From NCBI RefSeq assembly GCF_000744605.1, contig NZ_JQMG01000001.1, forward strand, positions 2,480,001-2,544,000: DNA of 64,000 bases, given 5' to 3'. The notes beneath the pieces are model-generated. The model made no database searches, had not been told where the DNA came from, and worked only from the letters and a program-made list of their open reading frames with translations. The stretch is from Methylotenera sp. L2L1. GTDB lineage: Bacteria; Pseudomonadota; Gammaproteobacteria; Burkholderiales; Methylophilaceae. Position numbers and translations under genes: made by a program. Of the stretch, positions 43,624 through 46,894 are shown piece by piece. Position 1 is the first letter of the stretch, and every line of letters begins with the position of its first letter.

Positions 43624-44253
43624 ATGCTTAGTTACGCGGATCTAGTAAAAACTTTGCATCAATTTGCAGAAAATGCAAAAGACAAACCCTTAACCATCGG
43701 TGAGGCCTTAGATACGCTAGATGAAGCAGGTTATGCATTCATTTGCATCATACTGGTACTGCCATTTTTACAACCCATCCCATTAGGCCCATTTACCGTG
43801 CTTGGCGGAATAGCTTTTGGCACGTTAGGCTGGCAATTATTACGTGGCCATGAATCCCCTGTATTGCCAAAAAAAATATTAGCAATTGAATTTAATGAAA
43901 AAACTTGGAGAACTTTAGCTAAAGTCTGCCTGAAAATTTTGGATTTATGCAGAAGAATCAGTAAACCACGCTACCCACGGATTGCCGAAGGAAGACGCGG
44001 TCAAAAAATTGGGGGCTTTATCTTACTGGCAGCTGGCGGATTAATGGCAATCCCTTTTGGAGTATTACCATTCAATAATTTTTTACCCGGCTTGGCTATA
44101 CTGTTTTACTGCATAGGAGAGCTGGAAGATGATGGGCTGATGTACTTTATTGCATTCTTTTGGCTCATCGTCACAGCAATCTATTTCAGCGCATTCTTTT
44201 TTGCGCTATGGTACTTTGGTGAAAAAGCATTAGCTTTCTTTAAAATACTTTAA
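43624..44253 (+). CDS. ExoD family membrane protein
   Basis: The 209-residue protein has three or four transmembrane segments and the ExoD pattern LTIGEALDTLDEAGYAFICI, LPFLQPIPLGPFTVLGGI and PFNNFLPGLAILFYCIGELE. ExoD proteins influence exopolysaccharide production in rhizobia, but the biochemical role is unclear. It forms the left flank of the cassette cluster and ends 317 bp before the first cassette gene. I leave the gene symbol blank because function in this organism is uncertain. Confidence 0.87.
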   Translation: MLSYADLVKTLHQFAENAKDKPLTIGEALDTLDEAGYAFICIILVLPFLQPIPLGPFTVLGGIAFGTLGWQLLRGHESPVLPKKILAIEFNEKTWRTLAKVCLKILDLCRRISKPRYPRIAEGRRGQKIGGFILLAAGGLMAIPFGVLPFNNFLPGLAILFYCIGELEDDGLMYFIAFFWLIVTAIYFSAFFFALWYFGEKALAFFKIL

Positions 44254-44529
44254 ACCCTGTGCACATAGACATACCCTAAAAATTTGTAGGCTAATACTGA
44301 GCTTCTATATTTTTCTTAAAAATGCGATTATTTTTGAAGTAATGAAATTACGAGTGACTAATCTTAAAGCCCAAAGCAATCATTCAAGAAGTCAAAAACT
44401 TCCCATACAAAGCAACTTCGTCTAGAATCATTTGGCAATGACTCATTGCCTCTATATTAATGAAACTCAGGACACAAAAATAAGAAAGTGCAACGAGATC
44501 CGGCCATATATCCATTTTCCATTTATTCA

Positions 44530-44553
44530 TATAGAGACCTATAGGTCTCTATA
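44530..44553. repeat. Perfect 24-bp palindrome upstream of the first cassette gene
   Basis: The left arm TATAGAGACCTA is followed directly by its exact complement, with no spacer. It lies 17 bp before the first cassette ATG. It could be an operator for a dimeric regulator, a transcript hairpin or a recombination-related structure. Confidence 0.8.
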
Positions 44554-44559
44554 ATTACT

Positions 44560-44566
44560 GTTAGAT
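44560..44566 (+). other. Integron-type core site (GTTRRRY) before cassette gene 1
   Basis: The heptamer GTTAGAT fits the core-site consensus GTTRRRY and lies 4 bp before the ATG, the same relation as the R' sites found before the next two genes (4 and 11 bp). Alone this is weak, but the position matches the start of a cassette. Confidence 0.45.
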
Positions 44567-44570
44567 ATTT

Positions 44571-44930
44571 ATGTCACCTGAATACAAACTCGACCTAACT
44601 GCGTTTTGGGGAATGACCGGGCCTGAGCTGATTGCTGAAGTGGCCCCAAACGCTTTGTATGAGAAATTTGGTTACCCACTACTCAATGACGGTGATAGCG
44701 AAAGTATGGGAACATATATTTTCGTTTCGCGCGCTGGTGACGTCGTAACTATTTACTACCGAGCAAACGATGTTTGGGAAATATTGCTTCGCTTGGTTAA
44801 ACGCTGGTTCTGGCGAGGCAAGGAGCCCATTCGATTAACAATTGGCGCAGACAAAAGGTTTCAAGCAGAAGAGTTCTCCAAATGGCTCAGTAGCGAAGTT
44901 CCCTGTAAAATTGGAAATTGGCCGTGGTGA
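44571..44930 (+). CDS. Cassette gene 1: hypothetical 119-residue protein
   Basis: I do not recognise the family. The protein starts MSPEYKLDLTAFWGMTGPEL and contains NALYEKFGYPLL, GTYIFVSRAGDVVTIYYRAND and a Trp/Arg-rich helix LLRLVKRWFWRGKEP. It ends in a short tail, SEVPCKIGNWPW. It has no signal peptide. Short, hypothetical, tightly bordered by recombination sites, it is typical of integron cassette genes. The ATG is 4 bp after a core site with no clear ribosome-binding site. Confidence 0.7.
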   Translation: MSPEYKLDLTAFWGMTGPELIAEVAPNALYEKFGYPLLNDGDSESMGTYIFVSRAGDVVTIYYRANDVWEILLRLVKRWFWRGKEPIRLTIGADKRFQAEEFSKWLSSEVPCKIGNWPW

Positions 44931-44931
44931 T

Positions 44932-44991
44932 ATCGAACCCATCATTCAAGCGGGACTGTCTAAAGCCAGCCCTTTAACCCTAACGTTAAGT
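44932..44991 (+). other. attC recombination site 1
   Basis: The site runs from R''-like ATCGAAC (44932-44938) through L'' CATTCAAGCGGG to L' CCCTTTAA and R' GTTAAGT (44985-44991; exact GTTRRRY). The arms are imperfect complements: AAC pairs with GTT, TTcAAgcGGG with CCCTTTAA with unpaired bases, and CTG with CAG in the centre. Such folded stems with extrahelical bases are the hallmark of attC. One R'' position deviates from RYYYAAC. Confidence 0.75.
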
Positions 44992-44995
44992 CTTC

Positions 44996-45379
44996 ATGCG
45001 TACCCAGGCAGCACTAGACGAATTTACACAACATTTGACCGATGTTTTTCGACTGTTCGGATCAATCTCCTTACGCCGAATGTTCTCTGGCTATGGCGTC
45101 TTTCACGATGGAATTATGTTCGGTTTAGTTTCTCAGGAAACCCTGTACTTGAAGGCCGATACCGAAAACTCTGCAGATTTTCGAGACCAAGGGCTTAGTC
45201 AATTCGAATATGTTCGACAGGGAAAAGTTATTGGATTGTCCTACTATCAGGCTCCAGAGATCGTGCTTGAAGACGCCAATGAAGCAGCGCTCTGGGCGCG
45301 ACGCTCGTTTGAAGCTGCTCTACGTGCTGACGCATCAAAAGCAAAGTCTGTTCGGAGCCGTCATAGACATGAAACCTAA
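44996..45379 (+). CDS. Cassette gene 2: TfoX/Sxy N-terminal-domain protein
   Basis: The 127-residue protein has the TfoX_N pattern LFGSISLRRMFSGYGVFHDG and IMFGLVSQETLYLKADTEN, then EYVRQGKVIGLSYYQAPEIV. TfoX/Sxy regulates competence genes in some gammaproteobacteria, but stand-alone TfoX_N proteins are common, occur in integron cassettes and have no settled function. The ATG is 4 bp after the R' site of attC 1 and the TAA stop lies inside the next attC, an arrangement usual for cassette genes. Confidence 0.8.
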   Translation: MRTQAALDEFTQHLTDVFRLFGSISLRRMFSGYGVFHDGIMFGLVSQETLYLKADTENSADFRDQGLSQFEYVRQGKVIGLSYYQAPEIVLEDANEAALWARRSFEAALRADASKAKSVRSRHRHET

Positions 45380-45431
45380 TCCATCATTCAAGCCGGGTGC
45401 CTAACTGCCCCCATTAACTCAAACGTTAGCC
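45374..45431 (+). other. attC recombination site 2
   Basis: This 58-bp site starts with ACCTAAT (45374-45380), has the same CCATCATTCAAGC segment as site 1, and ends in AACGTTAGCC with R' GTTAGCC at 45425-45431. R' and R'' each deviate by one base from consensus. The arms TTCAAGCCGGG and CCCCCATTAA pair imperfectly. Sites 1 and 2 have nearly the same length and spacing of elements, although the centres differ. Confidence 0.72.
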
Positions 45432-45442
45432 AGATTTAAGTC

Positions 45443-45994
45443 ATGGAAGCCCTATCACTTGAACTAAGTATCGCTTGCAAAGCCGACGCTAAAGAAATTG
45501 CAGCCCTCGTGAACAGAGCCTACCGACCTTCTTCGCAGGAAGCGGGCTGGACACATGAAGCAAATCTAATTGCTGGTGAGAGAATTTCCACCGAACAAGT
45601 GCTTTCCCTATTTCACGAACAATCTACGATTTTGCTCTTACGTCTTGGGCAAGATATCGTAGCATGTGTGCATGTGCAAGGTGGTCAGTCCAGTGCTTAC
45701 ATTGGCATGCTGGCGACTAATCCAACAATGCAAGCGCAAGGTCTTGGTAAGCAATTGTTACTTCACGCAGAGGCGTATGCCATTGAACATTACGATGCTT
45801 CTGTACTCAAAATTTCGGTTTTATCTTCACGGCCAGAACTCTTAGCTTTCTACGAACGACGCGGTTATGCTCTTACCGGGCAGGTAGAGGAATATCCAGT
45901 GTCAGCCGGTGTCGGTCAGCCAATAGTCACTGGCATCCAGGTTTTGTGGTTGGAAAAGGTACCAGCTAACCCACCATTCAAGCAAGAATCGTAA
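45443..45994 (+). CDS. Cassette gene 3: GNAT-family N-acetyltransferase
   Basis: The 183-residue protein has the GNAT fold with acetyl-CoA motif A LATNPTMQAQGLGKQLLLHA (Q-x-x-G-x-G) and motif B around LKISVLSSRPELLAFYERRG (FYERRGY). N-terminal EIAALVNRAYRPSSQEAGWT suggests relatives of the small-molecule or antibiotic acetyltransferases found often in cassettes. The substrate is unknown. Its last codons run into a decayed attC, so the present C-terminus (PANPPFKQES) may differ from the original. Confidence 0.83.
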   Translation: MEALSLELSIACKADAKEIAALVNRAYRPSSQEAGWTHEANLIAGERISTEQVLSLFHEQSTILLLRLGQDIVACVHVQGGQSSAYIGMLATNPTMQAQGLGKQLLLHAEAYAIEHYDASVLKISVLSSRPELLAFYERRGYALTGQVEEYPVSAGVGQPIVTGIQVLWLEKVPANPPFKQES

Positions 45995-46032
45995 AAATGT
46001 AGCTTAAACAGCTTCATCAAGCTACGTTATTA
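45964..46032 (+). other. Decayed attC-like site 3
   Basis: The left half is clear: AGCTAACCCACCATTCAAGC matches sites 1 and 2. The right half is degenerate: a GCTTAA stretch, then an inverted repeat GTAGCTT/AAGCTAC and ACGTTATTA, which fails the GTTRRRY rule. This site is probably non-functional and marks the right edge of the cluster. Confidence 0.5.
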
Positions 46033-46138: not shown

Positions 46139-46894
46139 ATGAGCAACGGATACTATCAACTACCCAACGGTCGGGTTGCCAGTGTTGACGGTGATTGTGA
46201 TTTCCCGCCACTGACCGAAGCACTAACAGACCCCAATGGCTTGGTGGCGATCGGCGGAGATTTATCTCTACCGCGCTTACTCGCTGCTTATCATCAAGGC
46301 ATCTTTCCCTGGTTTAGTGATGGCGAGCCTATCCTTTGGTGGAGCCCTAACCCACGCATGGTGTTATTTCCAAACGAGCTAAAAATATCAAACTCGCTAC
46401 AGAAAACGCTGAAGAAAAAAGTTTTCGAGGTTAGGTTCAATACTGCATTTCGCGAGGTCATCACCGCCTGTAGCGCTACGACACGCGCTCAACAAGCCGG
46501 CACCTGGATTACACAAGATATTATTGAAGCTTACTGCAGATTACATGAGGCAGGGTTTGCCATTTCAGCAGAGTCTTATTTCGACAACCAATTAGTCGGC
46601 GGTTGCTATGGCGTACGCATAGGCAATATGTTTTATGGTGAAAGCATGTTCCATCACAAAACAGATGCCTCCAAAGTAGCTTTTACAAGCCTAGTACAAC
46701 ATATCACGGCACAAGGGGTGGGTCTTATCGACTGCCAAATGAAAACAGCACACTTAGCCAATTTTGGCGCACGTGAGATTAACCGTGTAGCATTTGCATT
46801 TCAACTAAAAAAACTAACAATGGGCCAAGCTACAGAAGATACTAGCGTAGCAAATACTCAATTAACACACGCCAGACTTAGCAACATCGATTAA
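46139..46894 (+). CDS. aat: Leucyl/phenylalanyl-tRNA-protein transferase
   Basis: Aat adds Leu or Phe from aminoacyl-tRNA to N-terminal Arg or Lys of proteins, marking them for ClpSAP degradation. The 251-residue protein has FPPLTEALTDPNGLVAIGGD, the core AYHQGIFPWFSDGEPILWWS (family signature), and GGCYGVRIGNMFYGESMFHH. The bpt gene follows 21 bp later, so the two N-degron transferases form an operon, as in many proteobacteria. It is the first chromosomal gene right of the cassette cluster. Confidence 0.96.
   Translation: MSNGYYQLPNGRVASVDGDCDFPPLTEALTDPNGLVAIGGDLSLPRLLAAYHQGIFPWFSDGEPILWWSPNPRMVLFPNELKISNSLQKTLKKKVFEVRFNTAFREVITACSATTRAQQAGTWITQDIIEAYCRLHEAGFAISAESYFDNQLVGGCYGVRIGNMFYGESMFHHKTDASKVAFTSLVQHITAQGVGLIDCQMKTAHLANFGAREINRVAFAFQLKKLTMGQATEDTSVANTQLTHARLSNID

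Follow-up and report, generated by a model that had tools for sequence, protein, structure and literature searches.

The locus between exoD and aat in Methylotenera sp. L2L1 is very probably an integron platform without an integrase. It consists of an attI of the type used by a distinct betaproteobacterial clade of integron integrases (IntI), here given the working name IntI2, followed by two whole cassettes and a third with half an attC site. A module of attI type is joined exactly to cassette 1, attC sites follow, an integrase is absent, and the cassettes differ from those of a relative, with the breaks falling at recombination points. The window (the whole stretch of DNA analyzed, 64,000 nucleotides) comprises bases 2,480,001-2,544,000 of a genome that is a single contig of 2,641,989 bases. 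The layout of the locus is given in Table 1.

Table 1. Features of the exoD-aat locus, in window coordinates.
Feature	Position	Strand	Evidence or content
exoD, left flank	43624..44253	+	Pfam ExoD, 2.8e-47
attI-like module (IntI2-clade attI), decayed copy without integrase	44444..44564	+	Models R2 and R3
Former start codon of leader ORF: ATG to ATA, then 2-nt deletion; leader dead	44506..44508	+	Alignment to R2
24-bp perfect palindrome TATAGAGACCTATAGGTCTCTATA, IR2 of module	44530..44553	+	
attI crossover G^TTAGAT; cassettes begin at 44561	44560..44566	+	M. oryzisoli homology ends <=12 bp away
Cassette 1	44561..44985	+	ORF 44571-44930, 119 aa, no Pfam or NCBIfam match
attC 1	44932..44991	+	43.5 bits, E 2e-10 (R1)
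Cassette 2	44986..45425	+	ORF 44996-45379, TfoX N-terminal domain protein, PF04993 2.7e-28
attC 2, contains stop of gene 2	45374..45431	+	44.2 bits, E 1.2e-10 (R1)
Cassette 3	45426..45984	+	ORF 45443-45994, GNAT acetyltransferase, PF00583 1.1e-10, 3' truncated
attC 3, 5' half only	45964..45984	+	Good alignment in 5' half alone
aat, right flank	46139..46894	+	TIGR00667, 7e-59

Cassettes, attC sites and the resident integron

The first-pass annotation had placed two attC sites between three genes, and both their coordinates and their motifs stand as described. CCATCATTCAAGC is present in each, each ends in AACGTTA, and the sequences GTTAAGT (44985-44991) and GTTAGCC (45425-45431) lie 4 and 11 bp 5' of the ATGs at 44996 and 45443, respectively. 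Both sites match a covariance model (R1) built from the eight attC sites of a resident integron 1.24 Mb away, with zero window sequence included. With filters off, E is about 1e-10 for both (Table 1), and the best unrelated match in the window has 12.8 bits (E 0.24). R1, which derives from other loci, thus recovers two sites with the R'' and R' (GTTRRRY) ends that bound integron cassettes. A repeat at 44378, CAATCATTCAAG, was considered as a further attC and dropped (9.8 bits, E 1.8); it belongs to the left of attI. The search of the window against Rfam gave no match.

The site at 45964-46032, where an attC-like end had been noted after gene 3, scores only 15.6 bits with R1 and was rejected as a full site. 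Because comparison with M. oryzisoli and genome G026 shows a join to native DNA, the third attC is, by alignment, a 5' half-site fused to native aat-upstream DNA. G026 has no cassettes here; what resembles the DNA after attC 3 in that genome is the 5' end of a gene that lies divergently ahead of aat.

A CALIN is a cluster of attC sites lacking an integron integrase (IntegronFinder, PMC9024848). The exoD-aat locus has at least two attCs with cassettes and no integron integrase nearby, so that label, proposed earlier, is correct by definition; it is incomplete, however, in that the array starts at a recognizable attI. The description of the locus as integrase-less likewise holds within the window, where no TIGR02249 match of the genome falls and no intI accompanies attI and cassettes as in a complete integron, but not for the genome. 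A genome-wide search found an intact intI at G000:C1:1280973-1281917 (G000 being the genome of the window; TIGR02249, 479 bits), 1.24 Mb from the window, with its array on its left. Its attCs are of nearly the same type as those of the window, and more attCs are scattered at 0.39, 0.45, 0.84, 1.39, 1.54, and 1.86 Mb. This sedentary chromosomal integron resembles the exoD-aat locus in attC type and in having related cassettes, but its IntI is of another clade (about 50% identical) and its attI is unrelated. One attC of the resident array (G000:C1:1278174-1278341, minus strand) seems split, with about 120 bp of other sequence between its 5' and 3' halves.

The attI module and the IntI2 clade

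The module that precedes cassette 1 was scored with two models that exclude window sequence. R2 gives 57 bits (E 4.2e-15 genome-wide; 51 bits in a separate R2 run) and the broader R3 gives 45.6 bits (E 1.3e-12). Over 101 bp the module shares 79% identity with DNA located 96 bp from the start of a second integrase in M. oryzisoli (G014), a member of the same genus. Aligned copies have a common order: an inverted repeat, GTCTCTATAT...ATATAGAGAC (IR1), an A-rich stretch, a leader ORF, a palindrome with like arms (IR2), and a 3' end of TTACTG or TAACTG^TTR, after which the cassette begins. IR1, leader, IR2 and join are recognized in the window copy (E 1e-12 to 4e-15), which has decayed: the leader start is lost, the frame is broken and IR1 is partly gone. 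A TATAAT at 44550-44555 overlaps the end of the IR2 palindrome. The R'-like GTTAGAT that the first-pass annotation had seen before the gene 1 ATG (44571) is where it was placed, at 44560-44566, and turns out to be the attI crossover.

The same architecture is found beside eight of eight IntI2-clade integrases examined (G014 with two copies, G013, G282, G122, G087, G287, and G398), versus none of 26 other IntIs. The module lies 173-206 bp from the integrase start in G282, G122, G087, and G287, four further IntI2-like cases. In a tree of 61 rows, from which G287 was left out for its interrupted frame, IntI2 is a clade with 100/100 support, apart from the resident IntI. Because the architecture adjoins all eight IntI2 genes and none of the others, and IntI2 is a separate clade, the module is, on these comparative grounds, the attI of the IntI2 clade. 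For the left end of the module, GGACAAAGCNGNCNNTCAT (about -190 to -206) is no more than a candidate; its best matches are at modules, but looser ones occur elsewhere. A motif like GNCCAAAGCNGNCNTTCAT, at window positions 44369-44387, also occurs on the left side of other modules without an integrase, and looser forms of it are present at other places in these genomes.

A conserved leader ORF of 15-17 codons is present in many module copies. For the majority of Methylotenera copies, and for several belonging to other families, its start lies 56 or 53 bases 5' of the crossover and the frame is the same; the peptides (for example, MQYKLSIINIETHGSL and MRAVSILINVWTHGSLD) end at a stop 2-5 bases 5' of the crossover. 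The attI1 of class 1 integrons also contains a short ORF, ORF-11 or ORF-17, just upstream of the first cassette, and ORF-11, similarly placed, raises translation of that cassette (PMC8876359). The two attIs are unrelated in sequence, and the leader of 15-17 codons with two flanking inverted repeats with like arms sets the IntI2-clade attI apart. Moreover, since its usual stop lies 2-5 bases before the crossover G, the IntI2-clade leader needs no stop from the cassette, unlike the attI1 ORFs. In intact copies the leader ORF may feed ribosomes to the first cassette, by analogy with ORF-11. After attI1, the IntI2-clade attI is a second and independent example of an attI that contains a short ORF. 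In one copy (L151, G022:C204 about 6720), read by eye, a one-base deletion before the crossover removes the usual stop, and the leader continues in frame into the cassette.

Loss of integrase and exchange of cassettes

With R2, the module is found in 15 of 52 Methylotenera genomes. The IntI2-clade integrases seen in this genus are those of G014 (two genes) and G013, whose module is clear only with the broader model. Upstream of the Methylotenera copies that lack an integrase, about 1.5 kb of sequence showed no trace of IntI, and many of these copies have attCs just downstream. With R3, at least one module is present in 56 of 399 Burkholderiales genomes and 27 of 159 genera, with up to 8 per genome, although matches under about 30 bits may include chance ones. 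An integrase is alongside at 5 of the 30 best R3 loci, with none adjacent at the other 25. Some IntI is encoded in 27 of 42 module genomes versus 68 of 258 others (Fisher p 3e-6, which assumes nested samples and ignores kinship). Tandem modules about 1-1.5 kb apart, with a cassette between them, were seen at L262 (G205:C40) and L261 (G211:C1).

The genome-wide integrase search found no IntI2 in the genome of the window. At 1.543 Mb of this genome there is a shortened module, in which 75 bp are highly identical to an M. oryzisoli attI up to the first intI2 codons and are followed by unrelated sequence. This scar supports loss of IntI2 from the lineage of the window. The gene adjoining this shortened attI (L157, G000:C1 about 1,543,000) encodes what looks, by eye, like a LexA-type protein.

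The exoD-aat junction is filled differently in M. oryzisoli. Homology between the two species (about 80%) extends from exoD through ACTG^TTAG and a few more bases and then ends; from the 3' portion of attC 1 onward the sequences match again, at 87%, across cassettes 2 and 3 and aat. In the position of cassette 1, M. oryzisoli has two other cassettes with attCs of their own (80.4 and 36.8 bits). The cassette 2 protein is 91% identical and in the same position (M. oryzisoli La3113 contig NZ_PQVH01000002.1), and that of cassette 3 is 86% identical. These alignments indicate that cassettes were gained or lost precisely at the integrase-less exoD locus, once or more in both lineages or repeatedly in one of them. 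Cassette 2 was also sought, together with attCs, in Zoogloea and a betaproteobacterial MAG, and this model detected no attC there. G033 has exoD immediately ahead of aat, and in other relatives exoD was not found at this place. Because of these cases and the lack of cassettes in G026, the array is, as judged from these genomes, not fixed in the genus. The earlier picture of cassettes captured in a housekeeping neighborhood is thus borne out for attC-bounded cassettes that lie between exoD and aat and vary between relatives; what it overlooked is the attI of another clade. A second locus, presumably upstream of purB, is common to G014 (G014_C1) and G061, which we take to be M. mobilis JLW8; its flanks are 83-90% identical and the module is shared, but the cassettes differ.

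The two IntI2 genes of M. oryzisoli are on contigs other than that of the exoD locus. Because this species carries its cognate integrase away from the locus, the enzyme probably acts on the exoD platform in trans; for the platform of the window, such service is probable at least for the past. We infer trans action from these comparisons of sequence: either IntI2, as encoded in M. oryzisoli, or conceivably the resident enzyme would have inserted and excised cassettes at the exoD attI. The lineage of the window would have lost IntI2, its attI now decaying, and the window module may be inert now because of this decay. The cassette differences could come partly from homologous recombination between strains, and each lineage may have lost the integrase once the exchanges had taken place, so that past action may have been in cis.

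Other readings and known systems

The locus could be an ordinary CALIN, in which cassettes of the resident integron entered a secondary chromosomal site of the attG type and the stretch before them is a mere target. The resemblance of the window attCs to those of the resident array and the single attCs at other loci of the genome fit such an origin. An attG is a non-conserved chromosomal target, however, and a random target would not be conserved, whereas the stretch here is a conserved module, which adjoins integrases of a single clade and recurs ahead of cassettes at numerous loci. Random secondary-site insertion was therefore rejected as the main explanation, and we regard it as very unlikely. 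Still less credible is that the module is no recombination site and that a conserved region of promoter and leader comes before cassettes by coincidence. A role in expression is suggested by the conserved leader ORF and the palindromes, but the module stops at G^TT, the point at which strains diverge in their cassettes, and next to IntI2 genes it occupies the place of attI; attI1, too, serves both functions (PMC8876359).

A further proposal concerns the origin of the platforms and is compatible with the explanation preferred here, an integron platform minus its integrase. The modules would be dispersed small elements that spread with a cassette and without an integrase, non-autonomous and dependent on IntI2 in trans, and would not descend from complete integrons. 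There are up to 8 copies per genome, copies far outnumber IntI2 genes, several Methylotenera copies have a common left arm that is absent from integrase-bearing loci, and modules occur in tandem in G205 and G211. For these modules, however, a defined left end, a target duplication and a transfer mechanism were not found, the left-arm motif matches loosely elsewhere, and the genome of the window has plainly lost intI2 at one locus of its own (1.543 Mb). On balance, we consider such an origin somewhat doubtful.

The usual account of integrons pairs a single integrase with a single attI in cis and treats arrays without an integrase as degraded remnants. It is possible, and we propose it tentatively, that integrase-less attI platforms, each made up of an attI with its built-in leader ORF and a few cassettes, form a widespread family in Burkholderiales that spreads over chromosomes, and that integrases with genes at other places exchange their cassettes. 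The arrangement would be a split integron, in which one enzyme serves many expression sites. If such platforms are common and still exchanging, one cell would display cassettes at several expressed sites, and many CALINs would need re-reading. IntegronFinder 2 seeks attI for class 1 only, so that such platforms are lumped with CALINs (PMC9024848). A literature search for integrase-less integrons with attI gave no match, the one described precedent being the CALIN of the Shewanella prophage M16-3, also an integrase-less array that starts at attI and has its cognate integrase elsewhere (PMC9892861). The prophage offers one example, adjacent to a complete integron, whereas here there are many loci in many genera and another type of attI. 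The attI family and its models make the idea of split platforms testable in existing genomes.

The two IntI2 integrons of M. oryzisoli (L145, G014:C7; L146, G014:C17) have an identical first cassette (271/271 bases) after attIs that differ. A cassette related to it is present in the resident array of the genome of the window.
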